Made by a program: the position numbers and the translations under genes
The notes under the pieces: model-generated
Databases searched by the model: none
What the model was told of the DNA's origin: nothing
Seen by the model: only the letters and a program-made list of their open reading frames with translations
From: Polytrichum commune
Taxonomy: Eukaryota > Streptophyta > Polytrichopsida > Polytrichales > Polytrichaceae
Direction: 5' to 3'
Length of the DNA stretch: 64,000 bases
NCBI GenBank assembly: GCA_950295325.1
Contig: OX485804.1
Span: 28,832,001 to 28,896,000 of the forward strand
Shown here: positions 26,540 through 58,680 of the stretch, piece after piece
Position numbering within the stretch: position 1 is the first letter of the stretch
How the letters are laid out: the number at the start of each line of letters is the position of its first letter

Positions 26540-27560
26540 ACTCTTTGCTAGTCAAAGAAAAAGTTGACAAATTGTTAAAAGCATGCTTTAACTATATGTC
26601 ACATTTTTGAGAGTGGGTTTCCCCAATTGTTGTATTACCCAACAATAATGGAAAGTGAAAACTTGTCAAGATTTTTGCAAATTAAAGAGTGTCACAAGAA
26701 ATGACCACTTTCCATTTCCTTTCACTAACACTATACTAGATGTGTAATAGAAGATGTTCACTTATGGATGGATCTCGTGTTATAATCAAATTCAAATGTA
26801 TAGATCATTCATCATTTGTTGGGGAATTTACATTCATATATATAGTTATGACTTTTGGATTACGTAATGCACATGCTACATTTCAAAGGGTTATGGATGA
26901 AGCATTTCAGGAATATTTTGGAAAATTCATGGAAATATTCTTGGATGGTTTTGCGGTGTTTGGAACTCTAGAACAACATGCTGATTATTTGCAAAAAAAA
27001 TTTTTTGATAAATGTATGCAGTTTGGTATTTCCATAGTTGCAATTTTTCAATATTTTGCATTACATTTAGAAAATTATTGGGTCATGTTGTTTCTGGAAG
27101 AGGATTAGCCTACAAACCCATATAAAGTGGCAGACATTGCTGCTTAACCAATCCTTATTGCCACTACAAAGGTTAAAAGATTTCTTGGTAATAATGGTTA
27201 TTATCATAGATTCATGTTTAGGTATGCCATAATAGCCATGTCTTTAACCAAATTACTAAAGAAAACCAATTTACCCACAGTATGGACCTCGGCTTGCATT
27301 AATGCATTTAATACCTTAAAAAAATAGTAACAACTCCAATTTGAATTCCTCCGGATTGGGACAAAGATTTCCACATATATGTGAATGTTTCCAATGTGTA
27401 ATAAGGTCAAACCTTAGTCAGAAAGATAAGTAGGGAAAGAACCATCAAATTTATTTTGCTAGTCATTAACTTGTTCAAGTCAAGAGAAATTATTTTGTAA
27501 TTGAGAAAGAGGCATTGGATATGATATTTTTGATGTATAAACTTAATTATATGGCCTCTT
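26540..27560 (+). pseudogene. Ty3-type LTR retrotransposon reverse transcriptase/RNase H relic
   Basis: Fragments in order are: VDKLLKACF, WVSPIVVLP-NNNGKWK (26560-26660), the palm segment FGLRNAHATFQRVMDEAF (26860-26910), IFLDGFAVF at the catalytic-motif site (about 26930-26965), FDKCMQFGIS, then the connection region VKRFLGNNGYYHRF (about 27172-27215), WTSACINAFNTLKK, and RNase H beginnings near 27350-27540. Many stops and frame changes interrupt it. The usual double-aspartate catalytic motif reads LDG, so a catalytic residue is lost. No LTRs were found. Confidence 0.85.
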
Positions 27561-36000: not shown

Positions 36001-38646
36001 CAATGTCAAGGGTGGCTCCTCACGTATCACTTATGATCGTGGTTTTCCTGTTGGTTTTAAGGCCTCCTATGAAACTGTGAGTATGAATGACATTAAAGCT
36101 TCCTTTCACAAACTACCCAGTTGCAATCAAAATCTCCTGTTCTTGTCAGAAATGCTACAGAAACTTAGCACTAGTCTGTTGGTACTGTGTGAAATGTAGT
36201 CACTCTACATGTGATTATGTGCTGTAAATCTGGACTTCAAGAAATTGAATGTGGACTACTGGAAACTGGTCAATTTTATCTATTCTACATATTATGGTCA
36301 CACTCCTTGTGACTGGCAGTCACAAGGTTAGAATTGTTGTTGTGTCTATGTGATGAATCCTGTAGTATGTGCATCATCAGTGCAGTACTGCTGTTATTTT
36401 GTAATCAGTCTTTCAGTTCACATAGATACCAAGATTCTATTGTCATTTTTATCAGAGATAAGCCAGTCATGGTCATGAATGACTTAAATATGTGGATTGA
36501 CTGAATATTTTCGTTTTTCTCCAGGGCAATAAGGAGGAGAAGTACTTCATCTTCAATCACCTTAGCTTCACCATATTGTATCACAGGGATCCTGAATCTA
36601 CGACTTCCAGAATTGTTGGATTTGAGGTGACTCCACTCAGGTTAGTGAAACTCGTCATTTAATGCCTCCAGATGCGCAATGTATCTTTTTGACCTTGAGG
36701 AACTTGTCGTAGTGTTGACAATGCTTACTAAGCCTCATCTCTCAATCCTCTTACACATCTAGTTCTAGACTTACACAGGTCTTCAGTTGCTGGATATCTT
36801 GCAGTATGAAGTTCTCATAAACCTGAATGTTTCTTGAATCTGATTAAACTGACCTGTTCACTTTATGCTCTACAAAACCTGTTGAGCACTGCAGTTTGGG
36901 GATTTTTAGCCCTGCACTGTTGCATAACTTAGGATTGTCCTACATAGAACATAATCTGCCAGCTGCATGATAGGTGAGACGTAATCCTGTGTTTTACTTA
37001 AGGAATGGCTATTACAATCTCTATTGTAAATATTGTAGCTGAAAACGATTGCATTTTTCCCTTCCTTATTGGTCCACATGACTTGATTTGTGTTGTAGTG
37101 TGAAGCATGAGTATGATACATGGGATAAAGAACAAACAAAGTTGAAGACATGCAACTCAGCTGCGAAGGTGTTTGTCAATATTCATCAAAAGCCCCAGGA
37201 AGTTATCTCCAATGAGGACATCGTTTTCACATATGATGTGAACTTCCAGGTGAACTTCCTGGAATTAAGATGAGTTCCATTGTCTTTGATACAATGCTTC
37301 TGAAAGATACTTAAATCATCTGCTTTCTGTTCTTAATGCATTCCATCATTCCATCATTTATGCTTCTGCCAAACCGAATGTGGCATCAATTGTTTTCATG
37401 TTTGTATCCTATGAAAGTAGGTTAAGATGGCTTTCATTTACTATATATGTATTTAAAAAAAATTGGTCGACTTCTTTCCAATGTGCAGGCAAGTGAAGTG
37501 AAATGGGCATCCCGGTGGGACACTTACCTCCTCATGCAAGATGACCAGATCCACTGGTTTTCTATCATCAACTCTCTCATGATTGTTCTCTTCCTGTCTG
37601 GTATGGTGGCCATGATCATGATGCGCACACTTCATCGTGACATTTCGAAGTACAACCAGCTGGAAACTCAAGAAGAGGCCCAAGAAGAAACTGGATGGAA
37701 GTTGGTACATGGAGATGTGTTCAGACCACCTAGTAATGCTGGGCTACTCTGTGTCTATGTCGGTACCGGAGTTCAGTTTTTTGGGATGACCATTGTCACT
37801 ATGACTTTCGCTGTTCTTGGCTTCCTCTCTCCCGCAAACAGAGGTGGACTCATGACAGCTATGCTTCTTCTGTGGGTCTTCATGGGTTTGTTTGCTGGAT
37901 ATTCCTCCTCCAGGCTATACAAGATGTTCAAGGGGACTGACTGGAAGCTCAACACCTTGAAGACCGCTTTCATGTTCCCCGGAATCTGTTTCGTGGTCTT
38001 CTTCACCTTGAATGCTCTCATTTGGGGCCAGAAGTCGTCTGGCGCCATACCTTTTGGAACCATGTTTGCGCTTGTATTCTTGTGGTTTGGGATTTCTGTG
38101 CCACTAGTCTTCATCGGCAGCTACTTTGGGTTCAAGAAGCCAGCCATTGAAGATCCAGTCAGAACTAATAAGATCCCCAGGCAGATTCCTGAGCAAGCCT
38201 GGTACATGCGCCCCATGTTTTCAATCCTGATCGGAGGAGTTTTACCGTTTGGAGCTGTGTTCATTGAGCTTTTCTTCATCTTGACGTCAATCTGGCTGCA
38301 CCAATTCTACTACATCTTTGGGTTCCTATTCATCGTGTTCCTAATCCTGATGGTCACCTGTGCGGAGATTACAATTGTGCTGTGCTACTTCCAGCTCTGC
38401 AGTGAGGACTACCATTGGTGGTGGAGGGCGTATTTGACGGCTGGCTCTTCAGCTCTTTACCTCTTCCTCTATGCGGCATTCTACTTCTTCACCAAACTTG
38501 ACATCACAAAAGTGGTTTCAGGTATTTTGTACTTTGGTTACATGGTGATCATCTCCTATTCCTTTTTCGTACTCACTGGCACAATAGGTTTCTATGCTTG
38601 TTACTGGTTTGTGCGCACAATCTACGCCTCGGTGAAGATTGACTAG
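33070..38646 (+). CDS. TMN: Transmembrane 9 superfamily (TM9SF/TMN, endomembrane protein 70) protein
   Basis: Coding exons are 33070-33192, 34589-34753, 35194-35306, 35929-36076, 36525-36640, 37099-37249 and 37489-38646. All introns are GT-AG, the phases agree, and the total of 1974 nt gives 657 aa, a normal length for the family. Residues 1-28 are a hydrophobic signal peptide, followed by the family opening [11 protein letters not shown]. The lumenal domain contains [20 protein letters not shown] and FTYDVNFQ. The last exon encodes [11 protein letters not shown] and nine hydrophobic helices, with the blocks [18 protein letters not shown] and [12 protein letters not shown]. The C-terminus SVKID carries the KxD signal that binds COPI and retains such proteins in the Golgi. 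Known role of the family: Golgi/endosomal membrane proteins that help sort other membrane proteins. ATG33070 was chosen because it starts the signal peptide. The gene is complete. Confidence 0.95.
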
Positions 38647-42599: not shown

Positions 42600-43445
42600 T
42601 GGAACGTGTTGTTTGTGACCACGTTTTCCACTAGTATAGTAAATGTGAGCTCAACACCACCACCAACATGTTTTAAGGGGTTCGTAACCGAACCCTCAAC
42701 TGTCCACTTCATAAAACCTGTAACTTATTCCTCTTTTCTAATCAAGCAATGGAGAAAAATTCTAGCCATAGATTTTCGATGACCATCTTGAACAGTTGTT
42801 TTTTGTTTGGAACGTGTTGTGTAAACCCACGTCCTTTGTCGCTATAGCGAATTTATCACCTTGACACCACCATGAACATGTTCAAGGGGTTCATATAAAC
42901 CCCACCCTCGGCGTTCCACTTCGTAAAACCCGTAACTTGTACCTATCTACTACTCAATTGATGGAGAAAAAGTCAAGCCATAGATTCTCGATGACATCTT
43001 GATGATTCTTGGTGACCGTCTTGAGCGGTTGTTTGAAACGTGTTGTTGAAAACCATGTTCTCTATTATTATAGTGAACGTCACCTTGACACCACCATGAA
43101 CATGTTGAAGGGGTTCATATAAACCGAAACCCTCGGCTTTCCACCTCCTAAAACCCGTAACTTGGTCCGACTCCCTACTTAAACGATGGAGAAAAAGTCA
43201 AGCCGCAGATTCTCAATGACATCTTTATGATTCTCGATGACCATCTTGAGTGGTTGTTTGGAACGTGTTATTTATTAGGACCACGATTTTCCATCACTAT
43301 AGCGAATGTCATCTTGGCACCATTGCATCATGGGCACATCGGAATGCTTTTTAAAGGCTTTCCACTTCATGCAACCCGTAACCTATGCCGAATTGCTACT
43401 TAAATGATGGAGAAAAAGTTGTCCCAAAGATTCTTGATGATGTCA
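42600..43445. repeat. Tandem repeat, 3.8 units of about 210-226 bp
   Basis: Units begin with 'aacgtgtt' at about 42603, 42811, 43037 and 43263. Each has 'ctatagcgaat' or variant, 'acaccaccatgaacatgtt', 'aaggggttc', 'ccacttc.taaaacc', 'gtaact', 'gatggagaaaaagt', 'agattctcgatgac' and 'gttgtttg'. The last unit runs directly into AACCGG-family copy 6. Confidence 0.85.
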
Positions 43446-44815: not shown

Positions 44816-45800
44816 TCATGCCCCGAGCCCACCCAACTTTCCGTCCGCTTGCGGCCGTGGAATTGCGGGGGATTATGTGGAGGAACCGATGCCGGCCCAT
44901 CATTTGTCACACTATTGCAGCCGGAGATGCCGATGGATGGTGTGGGTGGACCAACCCACACACTCGTTCTTTGTTGGGTGTTTGAAAACCCCTGCCTCCA
45001 AGGAACCGGTGTACAGGTTGTTTCGTTCATGCCCCGAAGGATGGTGTGAGAGCTCGCCGGTGTGGTCAATCCTTCATGCCCCGAACTTTCCGTTTGGTTG
45101 CGGTCGTGGAATTGTTGGGGATTATGTGGAGGAACCGGTGTTGGCCCATCATTTGTCACACTATTGCAGCCGGAGATGCCGATGGATGGGTTTGGGCGGA
45201 CCAACCCACACACTCGTTCTTTGTTGAATGCCTGAAAACCCTAGCCTCCCAAGAAACTGGTGTACAGGTTGTTTCGCCCCAACCTCGAAGGACGGTGTGA
45301 AAGCTCGCTGGTGCGATCAATCCCTCATGCCCCGAACTTTCCGTCCGGTTGCGGCCGTGGAATTGCGGGGGATTATGTGGAGGAACTGGTGCCGGCCCAT
45401 CATTTGTCACACTATTGCAGTCGGAGATGCCGATGGATGGTGGAAGAGATGGCCAGTGTGGTGAATCCCTCGTGTCCCGATCACACCAAACTTTCCGTCA
45501 GGTTGCAGCCGTGAAGTTGTTGGGGATTGTGTTGAGGAATCGGTGCCGGCCCGTCATTTGTCACACTATTACGGCCGGAGATGCCAATGGATGGTGTAAG
45601 AGTTGGCCGGTGTGATCAATTTCTCATGCCCCAATCACACCAAACTCTCCGTCCGGTTGCGGTTGTGGAATTGTTGGGGATTATATTGAGAATCGGTGCC
45701 GGCCCATCATTTGTCACACTATTACGGCCGGAGATGCCGATGGATGATTTGGGCAAACCAACCCATACACTCGTTCTTTGTTGGATGTCTGAAAACCCTC
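44816..45800 (+). repeat. Tandem array of the 'catgccc' unit, about 5 copies
   Basis: Unit starts lie at about 44816, 45074, 45324, 45470 and 45623, so two long units of about 250-258 bp are followed by shorter ones of about 146-177 bp. The core shared by all is 'ccgtccg.ttgcggccgtgg', 'gggattatgtggaggaa', 'gccggcccatcatttgtcac' and 'ggagatgccgatggatgg'. The long units add 'ccaacccacacactcgttct' and 'gtgtacaggttgtttcg'. Open frames here are by-products of the repeat. Confidence 0.9.
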
Positions 45801-46796: not shown

Positions 46797-46805
46797 TTCC
46801 AACTC
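46797..46805 (+). repeat. Left target-site duplication of the MULE
   Basis: TTCCAACTC, repeated exactly at 58672-58680 on the other side of the element. Nine bases is the standard MULE duplication length. Confidence 0.95.
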
Positions 46806-46841
46806 GGAGGACGCTAAACACCCCCCCACGAACTTCTAGGG
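46806..46841 (+). repeat. MULE left terminal inverted repeat
   Basis: Pairs with 58636-58671 at 35 of 36 positions. Partial similarity ('ctgcccg') continues a little further inside. Confidence 0.9.
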
Positions 46842-47014
46842 ATTCCCTCTGACAGCGCCAGGGCTGCCCGCGAGGTGACGACAGCAACGAAAACCTTCTC
46901 CGTCAACTCCGCTTTCACGTCCATACACGTCCGCAGTGAAAGCGTATTCCAGGCAACAGATCCAGATCTGAATATATACGGGACCACGTATATCGTACCA
47001 CGTATACATATCTG

Positions 47015-47295
47015 CATAGCTAGTTCTACATACCCAGTTCTGCATATCTAGTTCCACATACCCAGTTCTGCATATCTAGTTATACATACCCAGTTCTGCG
47101 TAGCTAGTTCCATACCCAGTTCTGCGTAGCTAGTTCCATACCTAGTTATGCATAGCTAGTTCTACATACCCAGTTCTACAAATCAAGATCTACATAGCTA
47201 GTCCAAAAGATATAGTTCCACATAGCCAGTTCTATAGATCAATATATACATAGCTAGTCCTAAAGATATAGTTATACATAACCAGTTATACAATA
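47015..47295 (+). repeat. MULE left subterminal array, about 28-bp period
   Basis: Repeats of 'agttctgcatagctagttcc' followed by 'acataccc' run with a 26-28 bp period. GTTCTGC cores lie at 47037, 47065, 47093 and 47119, with decayed units to about 47290 and two more cores at 47299 and 47331. Likely a transposase or accessory-protein binding region. Confidence 0.85.
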
Positions 47296-47626
47296 GCAGT
47301 TCTGCATTTCTACAGATCTGCACGGCTGCAGTTCTGCACTTCTACAGATCTGCATTTGGCGTGATTTGCGGATCTAGGGTTTAAGGGTGTTGGAGCGACG
47401 ACACACAGTTCTTTGCTCTGCGTGTGGTGGTTGAGGGTAGAGAGTCACTTATTCATTGGGCCTCGCTTTACTGATTTTGAGTTCTTTGCAATGCGATATA
47501 CAGATTGTTGGATCGAATATTGAGGAATGAAAACCTTTAGGGGCATGTGAAGTTCTTTTGTACTCCAAATTGCCGGTTTAGGGCTTGTTCTGAAATTGCC
47601 TTCATTGCACGCACTTTCCTTGCAAT

Positions 47627-48269
47627 ATGTCTCATCCTCCATACATTGTAGAGTCCGACGATGACCTCCATGTACTTGCTCCTGCCACATTTAATGCAAC
47701 GGAGGCTGATCGTATAATTTCGCTGAGAGAGAGAGTCCAGAATCCTCCTCCAGGTCCATTTGCTATGGACGACTTGGTGTAGACCAACCACGTTTCTCAA
47801 GGCCAAGGGATACAGAAAACGTCTAAGCTGGCCGTCATTTTGTGGGATAGACTTGAGGATTTCATAAAGGGGGAGCAACAACATCCTCATTTCCCCTGCA
47901 CTTTCAACAAGAACATAGTCCGTGTTAACTTGCCACACTCATTGCGAGCACCTCGTGCACACAGTCCGGCAATTGTACTGAGGTTTGACATACTACCTAC
48001 ATTGAAATAGGAACCACACAAATTTTAAGTTCTGCAGTTTAGGGTTTAGCATAATGTGCTCGGTAGGAAAATGGCTAAAATATGCATTTCATTGTACACT
48101 CAAAATTTGGTTATCCATGTTACATTGCAGGTACAGGTGCAACTTTGGCCCTGAAGACAAGAGTGATATCGTACCAGATGACATGCAAGCTCTACTGAAA
48201 TCCACGCAAAAAAAAAAACAAATAGGCAATGGTGCACAAGAAGAAGCGGGGGAGGAAGGTAGTACCTGA
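47627..48269 (+). pseudogene. Upstream coding segment of the MULE transposase transcript
   Basis: An ATG at 47627 opens a protein-like frame (MSHPPYIVESDDDLHVL at the start). It runs to a donor at 47982/47983, is broken by a TAG at 47780-47782, and joins in phase to an exon at 48131 (RYRCNFGPEDKSDIVPDD). That exon then runs through an A-tract (48198-48209) into a +1 frame relative to the transposase core that starts at ATG48229. Either this was the original N-terminus, now separated by an A-tract indel, or it is a short upstream gene. The function of the segment is unknown. Confidence 0.5.
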
Positions 48270-50679
48270 ATATGATTCCTTCCCATTAACCACATCAATC
48301 CGTCCCAAGGCCACGCGCATTGGCAAGACAGTAGCAGGCTATTCGGTGAAGAGAGGGTGCCAACGTTGTTTTATTGCGAAGAAGCCCTACCTGGACCACT
48401 CGTTGTGTTTGCTCATTTACGAAAATGCAGAACACCTGAATGCTGCTGGAGAACACTGTCATGGCACCATGGTCTGTGGCTTCAGATATGCTCTCGGTGC
48501 CGGTGTATCGGAGGAAATGAAACTTAAAATTGCTGAAATGCATGCCTATGGGTTATCCCCTGCCCAAATCATGCAACAACACACCAAAGAAGTGAGGGAG
48601 TTGGCACTTTCCAACGGTTTGGTCACACGTGACACCTTCTTGTTGCCGTCGGATATCAAGAACATATGCCGTAAGAGGGCGGAAGACCTTTGGGAGAAAC
48701 ACCCGTCTGACCCCATCAGCATTCGTATGTGGGCAGCTGAGAATCCAGACAGCGTGTTCCACTACCAGGAACACTCGCTAATGGACCTTAATTCTCAAAC
48801 ACAGGACGACTCACCTTTCACCATTGGCATACAAACTGAATGGCAACTTGAAATGATGGCAAAGTTCGGTCACAACAGCGCTCTTTCCATTGACGCAACA
48901 TTTGGCACGAGCCAGACTAGGGTGAGATGTTCTCCATGGCCTTCAGTGGATATAATAGGGACGCTTGCTACTACATGTTGCCATTGTAAATTTGTTATCC
49001 TATCTGTATGAAACATTGTTTCACCACTGTTGTAACAATTATGTTCCACGTTTTCTACAGTACCCACTCTACACTGTGATGGTGTTTGACGATTGGAGGA
49101 ATGGCATACCTGTGGCCTTCTTTGTCATTTTGCGGACACGTGAACAAGACCTCCGCCCAGTTCTGCAAGCGCTGCATCACAGGGTCCAAACAGTCAACTC
49201 AGACAGGAATCCATCATCTATTATCGTTGACAATGCTCAAGCAAAAATTAATACGCTGGGGTAAGATAGTTTTTTCCCTTTGTTCTGCATTCATTAAGTT
49301 GTATTGTCAAGTCGTGACGTACGTCTTTGACCACCTCATCCATCTGACACCTTCATATGCTCTGTGATTTTTGCAGCCTGGTGTGGCCCCAATCCAAAAT
49401 CTTTCTGTGCTTGTGGCATGTCAGAAAGGCATGGGCAGAGAATGCAGTAAAGAAAATTTCCAACACTGCAGAACGCACCACTGTTCTGCAAATGCTTGGT
49501 GATATAATGTACGGCAAGGGTTGCAATGTTGACGATGATCCTGTCAACTAGGCCCTTTACCAATTGGACATGATATCAAACAGTCGTCCATTGGCAACTT
49601 CATTCATGAAATACATGAACGAGGTTTGGCGAGCCAAGACACCAATGTGGTGTGTTGGAGCTCGACGGATACCACATGCAGGACAGAACACTAACGCTGC
49701 TATTGAGTCTTACCATTGCAACTTGAAGAGTGTTCTAAACTCTGCCAAAGAGAGGTTTGTGGGTAGGCGCATGGATTGGCTTATATATCATCTGACGGGG
49801 GACGTTTTGACTCATTATTGGTACAGTGTACAGTGCAAGGCATTCGGATTCATACGCAACAGGAAGCAAGAAGGTATTGTTGCATCTGCAATTATAAGAG
49901 CAAATGACATACCTGACACAAACGTCCTCATTTGTGAGGACGAAGATGTTGCATACGTTGGGTCTGTGAACAACCGCCCGAAGGTGTGGACCGTCAAGTG
50001 TCCGAACTCCGAATGGGCACAATGCGACTGCCCAGTCGCCAATGAGGGCATGATTTGCAAGCACACCATCAAAGTCTTCAAGATGCTCCACCCTGGGATT
50101 GAGGATGGTGCTATAGTTCGTGAAGCAGGTACAAGACACGGAACCCAACGCGATACTCCTATGAAGCATGTGTACGCGAGGCTCTCGCAACAAACAACTC
50201 AAATCCATGTTCCGGACGGCGTGGGCAGCCCCTTCGAAGTTGAAACTGTGGTGCAGGACAATGTTCTGCAGTTGGATGTAGATGCAGAACACACCCCTCT
50301 AACTCCTGTGAAGCCTCTGTTTGTTGACTATGAGAACCCCTCCCAGTTCTCAGCTCATGTTACACATGTTGACCCCAACGCGGTTACACTTTCCCAGGAG
50401 AGTTCTTCACATGCAGTTCCTGCCGCAATTGCGCGATGCTTATACAATTCCCTTGCTCTGAAGGCCGATCAGCACCATGTTCTGCAAAATCACTTGATTG
50501 CTGGCCTTAGGCACATTAGGGGCAAGCAGAACCAGCTCATAGCACAAGGTGTTGCACATACACCACTGTCTCCTACGACGACCTCGTTCCCGGAGCGGTC
50601 TGGGGACAACTCTTTAAAACGCCGTCGAGGTTTTCTGGAGTACCCGTTGAGGAAGAGAAGACTATCCTGCTCCAAATAA
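48229..50679 (+). pseudogene. MULE transposase core (MURA-like), one in-frame TAG
   Basis: Exons 48229-48921, 49061-49260 and 49377-50679 join in frame with GT-AG introns. The total is 732 codons, with a single internal TAG at 49549-49551 (codon 356). The N-terminus has a FLYWCH/WRKY-GCM1-like zinc motif (C44, C47, H76, H78). The DDE catalytic residues are visible as SIDATF (D222), IIVDNAQ (D288) and AAIESYH (E408), with the MULE CLWHVRKAW block (C309-x2-H312) between the last two. A SWIM zinc finger follows at C514-x-C516-x8-C525-x-H527. The known family function is cut-and-paste transposition through binding of the terminal repeats. The stop makes this copy probably non-autonomous unless read through. 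The tail after residue 560 is unrecognised. Confidence 0.9.
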
Positions 50680-51682
50680 TACACCTTCCCTCTGCCATTG
50701 TTTGGATCGTTATTGTTATGCCCACTGGAGTTCTTATAGGGAGCTTATCGATTTACAATAATTATAGCATGTATTGTACTTATGTTCTGCTATATCAAAC
50801 TATATGTCATAATATGTGTGCAATATAATTATACATGTTATTTTAGTTTATATAAAAAGTTTTTCCCAATCACTCATCGCGTCCAAAGAGTCGCCTTCTC
50901 CTCCGTCAAAGCTCCTCGCCAACTCTCGTCTAACCACATCATTGACAAAGATTTTTGTGTAAGTTTATGTTCATAGAACGTGTGTAATAATATATCAGTT
51001 GGCGATGTTCTGTAGAAGACCGGTATGTGTTCTGCGTTTAGTGTGTTCTAAAAAATATGTTCTGTATACAGAACATCGCCAACTGATCCATCATAAGGCT
51101 GTTCTTAATAAACAAAATTGGCAGACAATGTTCTACAGAACACACTCATGATGGTACCTAAAACACAATGTTGATCCTAATAATGTTCTATATACATACA
51201 GTAAAGAATACTTCAGAGTCATAGCATGGTTGGGACATACCTAATATCGTGGTGCATGATGTCCTCCAACTCTCCTGTTTCCGGCTGCACTCACGAAGAA
51301 ACAATGTTAATCATCTCTCCAACAGACAAACATCCTCCCCAAATTGTAACAGCTATGCACCCCTCACAACTGCCAGAATGTTTCCAAAATGAAAATGCTT
51401 TATATAAAAGTGTCACATTTTCAGTGCAGTACAAGTGGTCTTTGACCATTCAATGCTATGTGTTTCAGGCTCCTTTGTATGCTAACCTCTGTATCCTGAC
51501 CTGTTTGTGCTAGCATATATACCATGATCTTCATCATGTGTTCTGTGTTCTGTGTTCTGTGTTCTGTGTTCTGTGTTCTGTTCTAAACATGTGTTCTGTT
51601 CTAAACAACTATACACTATCTGGAGTTGTACAGTGTAATTTTCATTACACTTCCATTATACAACATGATACATATGTTACGA
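50680..51682. other. MULE intergenic region between the convergent genes
   Basis: AT-rich spacer holding the 3' ends of both genes. It contains scattered GTTCTG/CAGAAC motifs (50784, 51007, 51029, 51059, 51069, 51136) and the GTTCTGT microsatellite at about 51538-51580. No gene was seen. Confidence 0.6.
51538..51580 (+). repeat. (GTTCTGT)n heptanucleotide microsatellite
   Basis: Five consecutive 7-bp units at 51540, 51547, 51554, 51561 and 51568, with a further GTTCTG at 51593. The unit is a one-base variant of the GTTCTGC motif spread through the element. Confidence 0.9.
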
Positions 51683-54600
51683 CTACACTCTACCGCTGTC
51701 GACTAGCTTTCGACTCACTTTAAACCTTGTTCTGCGATGACGTTTGCCGCTAGGTTTTCGGCGTTCTGGACTCTTAAACACAACTTTGACGTTCCACTCG
51801 GTCTTGTTCTTTCGTCCCTTCTCGATGACGTCAATCAATGCGTTCCTGAAAACCTTCCTTGTACGCAAAGCATCGCTTCCACTATACTTCAACTCAAACG
51901 CCTGCAAGAACATGGTGAACATCAGAACATAGGTTGTAGAACATGGTCACCCCCCCTTATGGAGGTATTATACTTCATCTACGTATGACTTTCTAATTAT
52001 ATAAGTAGGCTCTATCTTTATGTTGGTCTTTGGAGAGTTCTAAGTCCGAATTACCTCACACAATGATTGGGGACTATCTCTTACGGTCTTTGTGTACTCC
52101 ATTATGTTCTTCAGCATGTAGAAACCGCAAGCCCAACCCGAGTTTTGTTGGGGCACTCTTGTTTGTATCCACTCATGCGAAGAGCTAATAGTCTGCCAAA
52201 GACCTTCGTCACTGTCGTGGCCACTCCATGCAGCCCACAACTTCGCGAGTCTCTTCTCAAGTTTGGTGTCGGAATGGAGTTTAGAGCCTACCAACGAGTC
52301 CATATGGAAAAACCCATGTTCTCCTACTACGTACACTGTCCAGTGTTTTCCGCAGGTGTAAGGAACTATTAGGGTTTTAGTATCCTGTGAGGGAAGCGAA
52401 CCATACTTGTCGTGTATGAACGTTACATAAATCCCTAATGTTTCAGACTTTAATTCATCCACATGCGACATTAGTAGTGGACCAAGATAAGGACTGCAGA
52501 TATGACATCCGTATTTCTCTATCTGGGGATTCAGCCACGCCGCAATCCACTCCATCATGTAGTTAGTCATCTCCCCATGATGTTGCACCATTGGCTTCAA
52601 GTCCTCTTTCCATTGCAGACTCAAAGGATCACCACGATACTCAAACTCAAAACTTTTGACTTTCTTCGCACCTGCTTCAGCGACGATGGTGGCCACGAGT
52701 TCTTCAAGTCTGCAGATCACATGTCATCGTGTCAGGTGCGTTGTCAACAACCATGCAGAACACGCCAAGAAATTATACCTGAAGTAAAGAAGCAATAAAT
52801 AATTTACCTTCCATCAGTTCTATGTGTGGTCTTTCTCAGTGTGTCGTCCATAATTGGGATGGGAGACTCTTCATTCATTGGTGATACGTGGTCCTCCTCC
52901 TCTGGTACTTGGTCGTATGCGAGGGGAGTCGAAGGGGACACGTACTTATGGGGGGAGGAACCTTCACCCAAGTGACTCACCGCGTGGTATGCGTCATTGA
53001 AGAGGGTGTCGGTTTCGGTCGATTGTTCTGCAGTGCCAGGCGAGCTATCGGCGGAGGCCATTGGTTGGTCGACTGCAGAACTGGGGGGGTTGCAGTCGTC
53101 AAGATTGAATTTCCGAGCAGGCGACACCATAGTCCTGTCACCCGGAGGCCCTATTGCAAGCGTGAGCGACGGTGTCCTGTAAAACCACGATCCTTGAGAT
53201 AAACCTTAACGTGCATGAGGAACATGCAATTTGCATAACACAAAGGACGGTCAGTGAGTGGGACGAGACGTGAACCTGTCTGTCGTGTTCTGCAAATATT
53301 TTGAAAGCTGCGTTAGTGAGAGATCATGAGTGCTAATGCCTTCGACGCCCTCAAAGTCGCAATGCATGGGTATTGCGTCCAAGGTGTCCAGAGTCATGGC
53401 TTCGTTCACCTCGGCCACGAACCCCATAGCTGTCTCTGGTTTCTCGACTGGCATCACCACCTCCTTTCCCAGCAACGCCCTGGTGCAGTGTACGTCTGGG
53501 GCAATGTCGTCTGTTGCCTCCTCCACTCCTATTCCACAATTGAACAGTCGCAATTGTGTGGCCCTAAACTGATACAGGCTCTGTAACACCTCCTCCACCC
53601 GCAACTGCACGCAGCGGCTCTTAGTGTGCAGGTCGCCCAATGTCCATGAGCCTACGTCAATGTCTTCGCGGAAGACCATTGCCGAACACAATACCTGCGT
53701 CGCAGAGCGTTCACTTAGTTTGGTGTTCCCAGTTCCCAGTTCTACAATCGCTGTTCTACAATTCCAGTTCAACAAGCAAAGTTCTACCAAACCAAGGACG
53801 TTTATGAATTGGGTCAGGTCCCAACCTCTTCGCAATCCCGTTGACGCTGCGGCTCGATGTCTGCGTTGAACCACATGTCCCCAAGTTCTGCTGCACGACG
53901 CATACGAACCATGTCTGCAAGGGCTCGCTGCGCGATCTTGCCGATGAAGGACTCCACCTTCACAATCACTGCATTTTGCACTGAAGGGTCGCATCCTAGC
54001 AGTGCTGCAACGTCCTCGAACAATTTGTCCATGTGTTCTGCTGCATTGTGGATGCCAGGGAAGGTGCTCCACCCAGTCGTAGACAAGTTGGTCGCAATTC
54101 GGTTGGTCAATGCGGCTGAGTGCTGCGGATGTCGAGCAAGCTCCATGATATATTCGCCATGCAGACCTCTCGTTGGGTGAGAGAGTGGACGATTGAAGCC
54201 CTCCAGACTCCTCACCAAATACAACAACGCCCTCAAGATATATGGGCATTCGCCTTCAAGAGACGGGGGCTCAATTCTTGTGTTCTGCAGCAGAACAGCA
54301 GACATGTTCCGCCACTCCGACTGCGTATGGTCCCATGGAGCAGCCCTAAAGTTAGGGAGAGGCCACTTCCTTAGAAGTTGGTACACGGGAGACCACTTCC
54401 ACTTGGTTTCCTCCTCCTTCTCCTTGTTCGCGCGGTTATAATCTTCTAACGCCCTATCGACGTGCTTCCTCCGCAATCCCTCGAAGTTCACCCTTGCGGC
54501 TACGACCTTCTCCTCCCACTCCTTCACTGCTAGCTTGTGAAGTATGTAGCTCCTCAACTCCTTGAGCTCCTCAAACACGCACATCTCCTTGTTCTGCTTA

Positions 54601-56907
54601 AACACCCTAACCTGTGCCTTCACCTTCTCGACCCATTCGCTGTCTTTACCAGTTTTGTCTGCCTGCATCCACTGCAAAATAAAACATGGTTTATAAGTGG
54701 CTTCACACAATACCAATAAATCCCTAAACACTATAAGAACACAGTAGCAAACCAACAACCAGATCATGCAGAACACGATAACCTTGCAGGACTACATAAC
54801 TGCAGAACTGTACCTTAGCGCTGCCATACAAGTACCACTGCCCGAATGCGCTCCACATACGGGCTCCAATTGTGCCATCGTCCAATTGTTTCTTAAGGAA
54901 TTGCATGCAGCCGTCCGGGTCCTCTAATAGGTGTTTGGGCACCCACGGCTCCTCGGTCTGCAGGATGAGGATGTACAGGCCGTTCACTGGTTTTGGCTCC
55001 GGAGAGGGCCCAACCTGATTCTGCACACTATAAATTTCTGTTGCCTCCTCGTACGTTTTTTTCTCACACTCCTCTCGCGTGAGGGGTTTATGTTGGAGGG
55101 GTGCAAGATGAACATTAGGTTGTTCCTCTGGCGGAGATTCGGACTCTAGCACAATTTTGTGGACGTAATATGGATGCTGCATATTGGCACTATGAGGACT
55201 GTGAAGGACAATACCTTCGTGCGCAGTGAGAGCACCAATGTAGTTGTATGCTTCAGCCTCTGGTTGGCGCAGTTCTGCAACCGGTGGCTGGCCTCGTTCC
55301 ACAACCGGAGTCTGGCGCAGTTCTGCAACAGGTGGCTGGCCCTTTTCTACAACCGGTGGCTGTCGCAGTTCTGCAACAGGTGTGTGGCCCTTTTCTGCAA
55401 CCAGTGGCTGACCCTGTTCTGCACTCGCAGGTGTTGCCTGCAGACGGTCGTGCTTGACAACACGGAAGTCTTTGTCTCCACTCTGCTGCGAATCTGGCGT
55501 TCCATCTGCAGAACTTGAATCGGACTCGCTACGCGAATTGCCCGAAGTCAGTTCCTCTTCGCTGGAGACGATGATAGTTCTTCGGGCTGGCTTATTCATC
55601 TTCGTTCGTTGCCTTGAGCATGTGGGTGACTTTGGGACTTTCGGCGCTGCCTTCACTGCCAGGTTGTATGCCTTCCGAGGTGGTGATGATGGGAGAACTC
55701 AACCGACGGGGTCCGTGTTCTACCAGCCACAGGAGGAGCTGCCGTCCTCGTTGGTAGCTTGCGTTTTTTTGATCCTGTACCCTGTTCTGCAGGGACAGCG
55801 GCCAACTCAGGGACAGGGACCAACGCAGAACCACTAGCCCCCCCTAAATCCAAAGGCGGAGGGAATGTTGACGGTGACTGGGACCGTGCAGCATTTGGGG
55901 ACAACGCCTTCCCGTACTTTAAAGCAATCCTCTGCTTCTCACCGTGATTGCTTGGCTCCCAAGTAGGATACATCTTCAATGGTTTCGCCCCCTTGTAGTC
56001 CTTGCACATGTTGAACATCCTGTGGTGGGAAATCGTGTTCTTGTCTTTCCCGGACTCCCTACAGTGAATGCAAATAAACCTGTACCTGTTGTTAGCATGT
56101 TTGTGCGTGTCCTTGGCCTGCCAATATGCCTCTAGCACCAGTTCTTCATACTCTTCCTCGGTGTAGATTGCTGCACAGTTCTTCCTGTTCTGTTTCATCG
56201 TACAGCGAAAAATCTTGGAAGTTCCTTTAGGGCCACCGAACACCTACAAAACATTATCAATGCAGAACATACCAATATGAACTACGCACGCTGGAAGGAA
56301 TAAATGGCATAAATGGCACAAACAACATGGCATAAATTCACATTCTGACCACACTTATACCAATAGCATAACGATGGTTGTGTTGAAGCAGCAATACACT
56401 AAAACCGATGCTAGAGAAAACAACAAAGAAAGAAAAATCAATAATAAATTGCAGAACTGTCTTCAAGTGTGCATAATGCAGAACATGGGAGTGTATGTGG
56501 GTGGGCCTGTGGGTGACTGACAATGTGGATGTGTGCACCAGAAAATTGAGCAACAAGAACAAGAACAACACGTACTGGCTGTGCACAATGACATATTCAG
56601 GCGTTGAGAGTAGCTCATTTGCGAAGGAGCAGTAGTAGATAGACAGTTCTGTATGCGAATTTCTAAACACATAAAATAGGCCAATAAACATAAACAATAA
56701 GGGAATGTATGTGAAGGCGCTTACCCCTTCTTGAAATCCTGGCTTCCCATGTATACACAAGTCGACGAATTTTTCCCTCCCCAAAGACCTGATCATGTCT
56801 TCGTACTCTACTACGTGCAAATCCACTGCAAGCGCCTCTGGCAGGAATTTCGCACCTGATTTATGCCTAGCAGATTTTGGTGTCGCTTTTCCTTCGGTCG
56901 ACGCCAT
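51683..56907 (-). CDS. MULE accessory protein with C-terminal ULP1-type cysteine protease domain
   Basis: Eight minus-strand exons join with consistent phases and GT-AG introns: 56907-56725, 56243-55724, 55655-54814, 54671-53826, 53694-53276, 53176-52808, 52709-52055 and 51901-51683. They total 4053 nt, about 1350 aa, with no internal stop. The 68-bp second intron (55656-55723) is the least certain junction. Visible parts are: a zinc-finger-like cluster (C119-x2-C122-x11-H134H135-x5-C141), a basic KKRK patch at 220-223, an acidic Ser-rich stretch, a 16-aa repeat (PVAELRQ...PVVEKGQ), and a charged, probably coiled-coil segment near 545-600. The ULP1 domain follows at about 1060-1278 with H1182 (GKHWTVY), D1197 (HMDSL), Q1248 and C1254 (WACGF). 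The basic C-terminus is RRKPSGKRHRR. Known family: SUMO-type proteases, also carried by MULEs. The host or transposon target is unknown. Confidence 0.8.
55260..55440 (-). repeat. Coding 48-bp minisatellite carrying the GTTCTGC motif
   Basis: Within exon 3 of the accessory gene, four diverged 48-bp units encode the 16-aa repeat. GTTCTGC (plus strand) occurs at exactly 55272, 55320, 55368 and 55416. Confidence 0.9.
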
Positions 56908-57600
56908 TTATTTGTAGAGGTATTACGCAGGAATTGTACCCAAAAAACACTCAAAACTACACTCAAAACTACACTCAAAACTGAGAATGCACTCAATAAA
57001 CCCTACTCAATGAGTGTGTGAATTCAATGCGAGCGCATTTATGGTGTCTTAAATTCTACAATGCAATGGAACCACTACGATGCTATACAACAATCATCCG
57101 CACTAAACACTATACTGCAAACCCTAACAGTTTCTACGCAGTGTATCTTCGCCACCACAATGCAACTACAAAAAACGCCCTCAACCCAACAAAAACAGAG
57201 TGCAAGAACGAAAACCTGCTGCAGCGATACCCTAAAATTGCTTAAAGAATCTTTGAAGACGGCCATAAACAAACCGCGCGGAAACAGTTGTAACTGCTTA
57301 AAGCATTTACTGCGTCCACACTCAAGTGCCACTCAAAACTCAATTGCCACTCAAATGCCACTCAAAACTCTTTGATTCACACTTACACCTCTACGAAACA
57401 CACTCAAAGCGCTTCGAAACCGCTCGCATTCGCACACCATGCACTCAACAATCGCTCAAACCCTAATCGAATCCTTGCCTCACACACCTGAGAATGAAAA
57501 TATGCGTAAATGAACCTGCTGCAAGCGATTGAAGCTCCTGACGACATCTCCACGACGTAGACAGGAACCCTAAAGGTCGCTTCACTCGAATGCAATCAAA
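56908..57600. other. MULE region upstream of the accessory gene (presumed promoter)
   Basis: Contains 'actcaaaactac' repeats at about 56950-56980 and 'actcaaa' repeats around 57300-57370. No gene or GTTCTGC motif was seen here, so this is the longest motif-poor stretch in the right half of the element. Confidence 0.4.
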
Positions 57601-57624
57601 TCGTAATGATAGTTGGATCCACCA

Positions 57625-57870
57625 TGCGTAGAACTAGCTTACCAGAACTGACTAGTTATAAGGGTATGTGCAGTACTAGGTTAGCAGAACTGACTAGTTA
57701 TAAGGGTATGTGGAGAACTAGCTACGCAGAACTGACTAGTTAGAAGGGTCTGTGCAGAACTATATTACCATAACTGACTAATTAGAAGGATCTGTGTTGA
57801 ACTAGCTAAGAAGATCTGACTAGTTAGAACTGGCTCAGAAGAACTGCCTGTCTAGATATTGTTGTGCAGA
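57625..57870 (-). repeat. MULE right inner array, about 42-bp period
   Basis: About five decayed units of 'gcagaactgactagttata' followed by 'agggtatgt' run with a 41-42 bp period. The GCAGAAC orientation is opposite to that of the left array. Cores lie at 57643 (CAGAAC only), 57684, 57726, 57754 and 57866. Confidence 0.8.
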
Positions 57871-57909
57871 ACTGGAGGTGGAGAAATGGATATGCTAAAT
57901 TAAAGTTCT

Positions 57910-58460
57910 CATTAAAGTTCTGCCAAAATACCCCCTGGAGTTCTGTTCAAATACCCCATGGAGTTCTGCAAATATACCCCCTACAGTTCTGCTGCCATAC
58001 CCCCTGCATTTCTGCTACCATGCCCCCTGCAGTTTTGCTAAATTACCCCTTGGAGTTCTGCAAAAATACCCCCCTGCAGTTCTGCTCAAATACACCTTGG
58101 AGTTCTGCAAATATACCCCCTGCAGTTCTGCTACCATGCCCCTGCAGTTTTGCTAAATTACCCCTTGGAGTTCTGCAAAAATACCCCCCCTGCAGTTCTG
58201 CTCAAATACACCTTGGAGTTCTGCAAATATACCCCCTGCAGTTCTGCTACCATGCCCCCTGCAGTTTTGCTAAATTACCCCTTGGAGTTCTGCAAATATA
58301 CCCCCCTGCAGTTCTGCTACCATGCCCCCTGCAGTTTTGCTAAATTACCCCTTGGAGTTCTGCAAAAATACCCCTTGGAGTTCTGTAAAAATACCCCCTG
58401 CAGTTTTGCAAAAATACCCCCTGCAGTTCTGCTAAAGTATATCCTCTTGTTCTGCTAAAC
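57910..58460 (+). repeat. MULE right outer array, about 23-bp period, about 24 units
   Basis: Units such as 'agttctgctaaattacccc' plus 'ctgc' recur every 23-24 bp from 57917. Exact GTTCTGC cores lie at 57917, 57963, 57986, 58055, 58079, 58102, 58125, 58170, 58195, 58218, 58241, 58287, 58311, 58357, 58426 and 58449. Intervening units have GTTTTGC or GTTCTGT. A higher-order repeat of several units is also visible. The open frames through it are artefacts of the repeat. Confidence 0.95.
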
Positions 58461-58635
58461 ATATCCCTTACCTGTACTGCTAGTATTCGTACGTCCTACC
58501 GATACTCATGGGAGTACGTACGAGTACCACATACAGAACTAGTACGGTATACCGGGGTTCGCAACGTCCGTCCGTGACAACCGGTTCGACCGGTACCCCC
58601 GCGACGGGCAGCACTGGAATTTCCTTCCAGGTGCC

Positions 58636-58671
58636 CCCTAGAAGTTCATGGGGGGGTGTTTAGCGTCCTCC
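58636..58671 (-). repeat. MULE right terminal inverted repeat
   Basis: Reverse complement of the left terminus with one mismatch. The exact target duplication TTCCAACTC follows at 58672-58680. Confidence 0.9.
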
Positions 58672-58680
58672 TTCCAACTC

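Follow-up and report, generated by a model that had tools for sequence, protein, structure and literature searches.

A heptamer saturating a Mutator-like element of Polytrichum commune: a possible address read by the element's own protein

What does a single heptamer, GTTCTGC or its complement GCAGAAC, do in a transposon that it saturates? The question is raised by a Mutator-like element (MULE) of Polytrichum commune, assigned here to a subfamily A, which occupies positions 46806-58671 of a 64,000-nucleotide window (contig OX485804.1 of assembly GCA_950295325.1, forward-strand positions 28,832,001 to 28,896,000). The element carries 60 exact copies of the word, 6 in its left subterminal region, 20 in its right subterminal region and 34 in the core between them (47361-57599, 10.2 kb), and the other 52,134 bp of the window carry none. 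A preliminary description had counted by eye about 60 copies, some 34 of them outside the terminal arrays; both figures prove exact, and its ten example positions are all in the list of exact matches. The answer weighed below, to which we give about an even chance, is that a MULE superfamily labels its DNA with a short word for one of its own proteins to read, in the anti-silencing manner of VANC proteins.

Across 19 other 10-kb stretches of the genome the word occurs 8 times in 190 kb, so that a density of 5.1 per kb in the element compares with 0.042 per kb in this background, about 120-fold for the element and about 80-fold for the core. The preliminary description was right that the rest of the window lacks the word, but at the background rate about 2 copies, rather than about 6, are expected in 52 kb, and the absence is therefore ordinary. 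The same 8 copies give no sign that the host avoids the word. After tandem-repeat masking, GCAGAAC is the top heptamer of the core (30 in 9,813 bp), with a log-ratio score of 152 against 22 for the next non-overlapping word. Markov models of orders 0-3 predict 1.2-7.4 copies in the core; orders 4-5, trained on the same core, predict 18-30, because the motif then predicts itself. The proposed 7-mer enrichment thus holds against orders 0-3 and against the synonymous shuffles given below, and the density in unrelated genomic DNA is far lower than in the element rather than equal to it. The element is also rich in C[A/T]G (39.4 per kb against 19.8 per kb outside), in part because each GTTCTGC itself contains CTG/CAG, a CHG methylation site.

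The word makes no distinction between coding and non-coding DNA: of its 34 core copies, 23 fall within 6,450 nt of exon sequence and 11 outside it, giving similar densities of 3.4 per kb in exons (the 5' exon counted) and 3.2 per kb in the rest of the core. All three codon offsets and both strands are used, and synonymous shuffles, which rest on exons called by eye, give far fewer copies than observed. Specifically, the transposase holds 8 coding copies against 1.31 in the shuffles and the accessory gene 15 against 3.04, with 0 of 1000 shuffles reaching the observed number in either gene; a coding repeat at 55261-55423 contributes 4 non-independent copies, and the accessory gene without that exon still gives 10 against 2.12. 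Additionally, Ala-Glu followed by a Cnn codon is spelled GCAGAAC in 11 of 11 cases (0.20 expected; 4 of the 11 in the coding repeat), and Val-Leu followed by Cnn is spelled GTTCTGC in 5 of 8 (0.06 expected). A DNA-level word spread in this way through exons, introns and spacers is, as had been proposed, more than a transposase end site. The exons concerned and the non-coding copies are listed below; the exon borders of both genes and the transposase splice site were called by eye.

47612-48007, plus strand: probable transposase 5' exon, no motif; a block 75-84% identical in sister copies
48229-48930, plus strand: transposase exon, motif 48427
49061-49262, plus strand: transposase exon with MULE domain (PF10551), motif 49160
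49378-50679, plus strand: transposase exon with SWIM-like finger, motifs 49468, 49483, 50263, 50284, 50479, 50526
56725-56907, minus strand: first accessory exon
55699-56243, minus strand: second accessory exon, with a C-x2-C...H...C finger-like module, motifs 55784, 55825; frame change at its end
54814-55698, minus strand: third accessory exon, with 24-bp coding repeats, motifs 55272, 55320, 55368, 55416, 55508
53290-54671, minus strand: accessory coding region, frame change near 53.85 kb, motifs 53885, 54035, 54282, 54290, 54591
52808-53191, minus strand: accessory exon, motifs 53025, 53075
52055-52708, minus strand: ULP1 (peptidase C48) accessory exon, no motif; PF02902, E 3.5e-6
51683-51901, minus strand: last accessory exon, motif 51729
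48029, 49282, 50784, 51029, 52755, 53287, 54768, 54802, 56262, 56451, 56478: the 11 non-coding core motifs, of which 53287 lies at the edge of the accessory region 53290-54671

The word is also strict. Outside simple repeats the exact word has 30 copies, while its 21 one-letter variants have 40 between them where 19.3 are expected, an excess of about twofold; the commonest variant, GTTCTGT, has 7 copies. The flanks of the 34 core copies are unrelated apart from one base on each side, T or A before in 31 and A after in 25, which gives a wider word W-GTTCTGC-A. Functionless copying, by which slippage, templated insertion or gene conversion would have scattered pieces of the arrays, could point to the tandem arrays themselves and to a listing of close word pairs that differs between two A copies (16 in the studied copy, 22 in another on contig C2). 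The absence of common flanks, the use of both orientations, the synonymous codon use, the intron strand bias and parallel single-base differences at three aligned sites nevertheless make such copying very improbable.

The intron bias concerns orientation: in the sense strand, GTTCTGC and GCAGAAC stand at 7:0 in introns (49282, 52755, 54768, 54802, 56262, 56451, 56478) and at 8:15 in exons (Fisher 0.006). We read this bias as a splicing filter, since a sense GCAG within an intron would make a false acceptor, and on this view the bias agrees with a reader that accepts the word in either orientation. That all 7 intronic copies read GTTCTGC in the sense strand might instead suggest an RNA-level signal, namely a splicing, stability or processing element in transcripts, but with both orientations in exons, further copies in spacers and ends, and avoidance of CAG acceptors explaining the intron bias, such a signal is scarcely credible.

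The remaining 26 copies belong to arrays at the two ends of the element, which is delimited and organised as follows.

46806-58671, 11,866 bp: whole MULE, subfamily A, delimited by its terminal inverted repeats and the 98-99% identical left ends of 6 other copies
46797-46805 (left) and 58672-58680 (right): 9-bp target site duplication TTCCAACTC, both read directly
46806-46841, plus strand: left terminal inverted repeat, 36 bp, 97% complementary to 58636-58671
58636-58671, minus strand: right terminal inverted repeat, 36 bp, pairing with the left one
47008-47354, plus strand: left subterminal arrays of 14/28-bp and 16-bp units, 6 exact motifs (47037, 47065, 47093, 47119, 47299, 47331)
57630-57895, minus strand: right 42/28-bp array, motifs 57684, 57726, 57754, 57866, all GTTCTGC on the minus strand
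57916-58470, plus strand: right 23-bp array of 24 units, exact motif in 16 of 24, from 57917 to 58449

The duplication TTCCAACTC flanks both ends and, at 9 bp, lies within the 8-11 bp typical of MULEs. The two right-end arrays run in opposite directions, altered units occur in the terminal arrays as well (in the 23-bp array the exact word is missing from 8 of 24 units), and the arrays sit upstream of two genes that face each other, the transposase gene on the plus strand and the finger-plus-ULP1 accessory gene on the minus strand. The transposase is of MULE type on the E-value of its MULE domain only: PF10551 matches at E 6.1e-6 with 27.0 bits, slightly below the curated cut-off of 27.6, and the SWIM match (E 0.098) is below cut-off. 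In maize Spm/En, subterminal repeats of a short word are read by TnpA, which also affects methylation; that element belongs to another superfamily and, unlike the studied one, confines its sites to the ends.

These features bear on the transposase, the main rival to the accessory protein as reader. If the word were the transposase's binding site, the end arrays would serve transposition and the internal copies would recruit, store or titrate the enzyme or prevent self-insertion. The subterminal placing of the arrays, shared with the transposase sites of plant DNA transposons (Spm TnpA, Ac), suits this account, as do the SWIM-like segment and a CxxC...HxH stretch recognised by eye, but end sites would not require the 34 internal copies, of which the 23 in exons exceed what synonymous codon choice predicts, and the opposite directions of the right-end arrays also speak against an account that we consider unlikely.

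Genome searches covered 407.8 Mb in 64 contigs, of which C1-C7 measure 42-78 Mb and C8 0.15 Mb. The left end gives 40 scored matches in three classes, 7 at 98-100% (the studied copy included), 27 at 74-84% and 6 covering the outer 41 bases only, and each of the 7 A copies has 7-11 words in its 3.2-kb left-end locus. The transposase exon has 109 genome matches, in identity groups of about 93-98, 78-80, 71-73, 62, 58, 55 and 44%; searches of a prokaryote collection with a transposase exon and of a viral collection with transposase and ULP1 pieces found no relatives, and Rfam at gathering scores gave no match. Both genes of the studied copy are broken by in-frame stops and frame changes. One TAG, at 47780 in the 5' exon, is not found in A copies L023 and L027, and another stands at 49549-49551 in the last transposase exon, for which all five listed other A copies have a longer open frame, one with a stop; among six other A copies the finger exon has a longer open frame in four (one with a stop) and a shorter one in two. 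Less damaged A copies therefore exist in the genome. A minus-strand open reading frame at 47537-47938 was rejected as a third gene, being the antisense of the transposase 5' exon.

Sister copies carry altered words. Stretches of subfamilies B (L043, 5 kb), C (S1, 5 kb), D (L044, 4 kb) and H (L045, 4 kb) were compared with the A core, and among all XYNZWNV patterns GTNCTNC comes top in the A core, B, C and D, at 5.8-8.2 per kb overall (B 8.0, C 8.2, D 5.8) against 1.44 per kb in a 242-kb background; in B, C and D it is mostly preceded by T and followed by A. It also comes first when the ends of ten sister copies (L029-L038) are pooled, with 110 occurrences at 6.8 per kb. An earlier pool comprised six of these ten ends, chosen partly for showing the word, and the four left out also place GTNCTNC first (31 in 6.5 kb, 4.8 per kb). 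The S2 copy (L032 with L042) was used for its left 1.8 kb only, similarity being lost beyond. The heptamer would then be one filling of a scaffold, T-GTNCTNC-A, whose commonest filling differs by subfamily: GTTCTGC in A, GT[T/C/A]CTGC in B, GT[C/T]CT[A/T]C in C and GT[T/C]CTTC in D. The first free letter is T in 76% of cases in A, T, C or A in B, and C or T in C; the second is G in 61% in A and in 47% in B, T, A or G in C (A in 51% of six ends) and T in 78% in D, which has no GTTCTGC in 4 kb. Patterns called a subfamily's own were selected on these very data and are given no weight, and a single word TGTCCTACA for C was discarded as too narrow, C using several fillings. The pair pattern GTCCTACA occurs at 42 places against 8 for its reversed form, only 6 of them in copies from the left-end match list. 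In H, the heptamer GTAGTGC/GCACTAC, picked as the top one and a lead only, occurs 7 times in 4 kb against 25 in the 242-kb background, and is perhaps another filling or a shifted scaffold.

These preferences bear on a host DNA-binding factor as reader, for which the elements would have amassed sites that promote transcription or opening with no element protein involved. Such a factor would explain arrays placed upstream of both inward-facing genes and motif pairs elsewhere in the genome; sister subfamilies, however, share one nucleus and one factor and yet prefer different fillings, and we hold this account to be quite improbable.

The sites have also turned over between subfamilies. Nine words of A lie in the aligned transposase region, of which two are exact in B (48427, 49468) and one in C (48427); D has none exact at 7 aligned sites. 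At three sites where A reads GTTCTxC (49160, 49483, 50284), B, C and D have T at the sixth position and A has G; columns with this distribution number 11 of 732 comparable ones, the three word sites included, and at a fourth site, 50402 (D missing), A stayed T. Judged from the reading frames, two of the three T-to-G changes are synonymous and one is not. The pattern looks like a directional retuning of A at the sixth position, on few sites that were chosen for A reading GTTCTxC.

The accessory gene occupies the minus strand between 56907 and 51683 and changes frame near 55.70 kb and again near 53.85 kb; the coding repeats of its third exon amount to an 8-residue peptide repeat (55261-55423). 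Its finger-like module has 128 genome matches and falls above the cut-off of no Pfam family; its ULP1 exon has 152 genome matches and also matches PDB 6dg4 (E 0.0031). Subfamilies A, B, C, D, E, G and H each have at least one copy with finger, ULP1 and transposase in a common order, as judged by comparing match places; some matches are fragments of a single copy. What is observed comprises the co-occurrence of the two genes, the enrichment, the DNA-level nature of the word, the differing fillings and the site turnover; the reading of the word by a protein, the identity of that protein and the anti-silencing outcome are what we infer.

Such a word, exact, free in strand, found alike in coding and non-coding DNA, concentrated in arrays upstream of both genes and leaning differently in sister families that share one nucleus, is best explained as an address for an element protein. 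The reader would most likely be the accessory protein, with its finger-like module and ULP1 domain, which is favoured because these modules accompany the transposase throughout. Reader and word would drift together, and the differing fillings with the site turnover would be the trace expected of a coevolving, VANC-like self-recognition. Reading would open, or keep open, chromatin in the reader's own subfamily and no other, in the way that VANC acts on VANDALs. The strongest dose would come from the arrays upstream of the two genes, and exon and intron copies would extend the effect along the element. As a guess, the ULP1 domain could strip SUMO from silencing proteins at the bound site.

Several results weigh against this self-recognition. 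Scaffold sites are kept no better than controls (0.290 retained, compared with 0.285 on average over 373 control patterns), so that an expected conservation of position is not borne out; most sites were therefore gained or lost lineage by lineage, and only density, not place, can be under selection. Single sister ends rank GTNCTNC first in 5 of 10 cases, with ranks from 1st to 53rd (L029 53, L033 16, L036 47), it is only seventh in B's repeat-rich ends, and H, at 44% transposase identity, shows a weak trace at rank 7. The fillings overlap, C holding GTTCTGC (5 in 5 kb) and B holding GTTCTAC and GTTCTTC. The coding excess of the scaffold is weak in the sisters, where 18 (B), 142 (C) and 45 (D) of 2000 shuffles reach the observed number, and heavy exon use is therefore documented for A only. 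The accessory finger is recognised by eye only and evolves no faster than the rest, contrary to what a changing reader would lead one to expect. Exon by exon, DUF1985 and DUF287 give no match at E up to 10, and a genome-wide search found no DUF1985, its positive control likewise giving no match. Helical phasing, a feature of VANC targets, was not found among the word copies. Finally, GTTCTGC pairs 5-30 bases apart occur at 272 places in the genome against 43 for the reversed pattern, and the first 100 of these 272 comprise 38 within two A copies, 8 close to other MULE copies and 54 elsewhere, including a 27-bp repeat at 9 places; over the genome portion that these 100 cover, all MULE anchors together take up about 1.1 of 185 Mb. 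The word thus characterises these elements without being confined to them.

Pair clusters are also seen near one end of contig C3 (G000:C3:75385-113094 and 312656-312859), outside known copies. At G000:C1:17395122-17396284, two perfect 41-bp ends face each other across 1,163 bp, probably a small non-autonomous derivative, and none of the 100 listed pair places, which cover C1, falls there. Within the element, a TGTGTTC microsatellite-like run between the two genes (51537-51607) ends in GTTCTAAACA repeats, near-variants of the word. Long-period tandem repeats (225, 251 and 154 bp) at 42654-43269 and 44835-45746 adjoin the element. Further off lie what is evidently a host gene, an open frame for an EMP70/TM9SF membrane protein at 37426-38643 (PF02990, E 5e-165), and a Ty3/gypsy-like reverse transcriptase fragment at 26740-27108, judged by eye.

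How far does the proposed address resemble known systems? Ulp1-bearing VANC genes that recognise their own motifs reportedly go back to Sasaki et al. 2022, which a 2026 review cites for them. VANC21 and VANC6 each bind a short word specific to their family and demethylate the elements of that family (PMC5735166, PMC10398659), the VANDAL words being YAGTATTAY and AGTTGTCC/AGTTGTAC (PMC5735166). VANDAL21 and VANDAL6 resemble the studied element as MULEs with an accessory gene, a short word dense in their own family, tandem arrays that differ between copies, different words in related families (here overlapping) and tandem peptide repeats in the accessory protein (PMC5735166). They differ in that the VANDAL word is mainly non-coding, whereas 23 of 34 core copies here are exonic; in arrays of one orientation rather than both; in the VANC domains DUF1985/DUF287, undetected here, and the clear 36-bp terminal inverted repeats of the studied element; and in that binding and hypomethylation are demonstrated for VANC (PMC5735166) and are a prediction for the present element. 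The suggested VANDAL-like logic accordingly stands in part: the sister families are rich in altered words, as for VANC21 and VANC6, but the accessory gene has no detectable DUF1985. Because no such domain was found, the element may be VANDAL-like in working yet is not filed as a VANDAL. To call self-recognition new in a ULP1-bearing MULE went too far, since a 2026 review already describes VANDALs whose VANC gene has a Ulp1 domain and recognises its own motifs (PMC13317346).

ULP1-bearing MULEs with a reversed ULP gene are likewise known (PMC2528002). As far as the available text of their descriptions goes, KI-MULE/Kaonashi (KIU) and the melon, rice and grapevine ULP1-MULEs share the arrangement seen here, PF02902 on the minus strand facing the transposase on the plus strand; the KI-MULEs are described as lacking terminal inverted repeats, in contrast to the 36-bp repeats (97%) of the studied element, and no saturating word in exons is mentioned in that text (PMC2528002, PMC13317346). 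Our search of the open-access literature found no paper naming GTTCTGC and GCAGAAC together, or either with a transposon, and no exon-imposed word, fixed-position retuning of a scaffold or DUF1985-free system of this kind. The kind of system is known; what is new is the strict word written into exons. A stronger version, a VANC-independent code in which T-GTNCTNC-A is retuned per subfamily for a finger-ULP1 reader and, in A, is written into exons and shapes the proteins, is proposed only tentatively.

Sequence-specific anti-silencing by a transposon has been worked out for VANDALs. The four sampled sister subfamilies, each with transposase, finger and ULP1 and differing at two scaffold positions, offer natural pairs of reader and word, and the coevolution of reader and address can be tested by swapping among them. 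If the self-recognition proposed here is true, coding DNA can be made to carry such an address.

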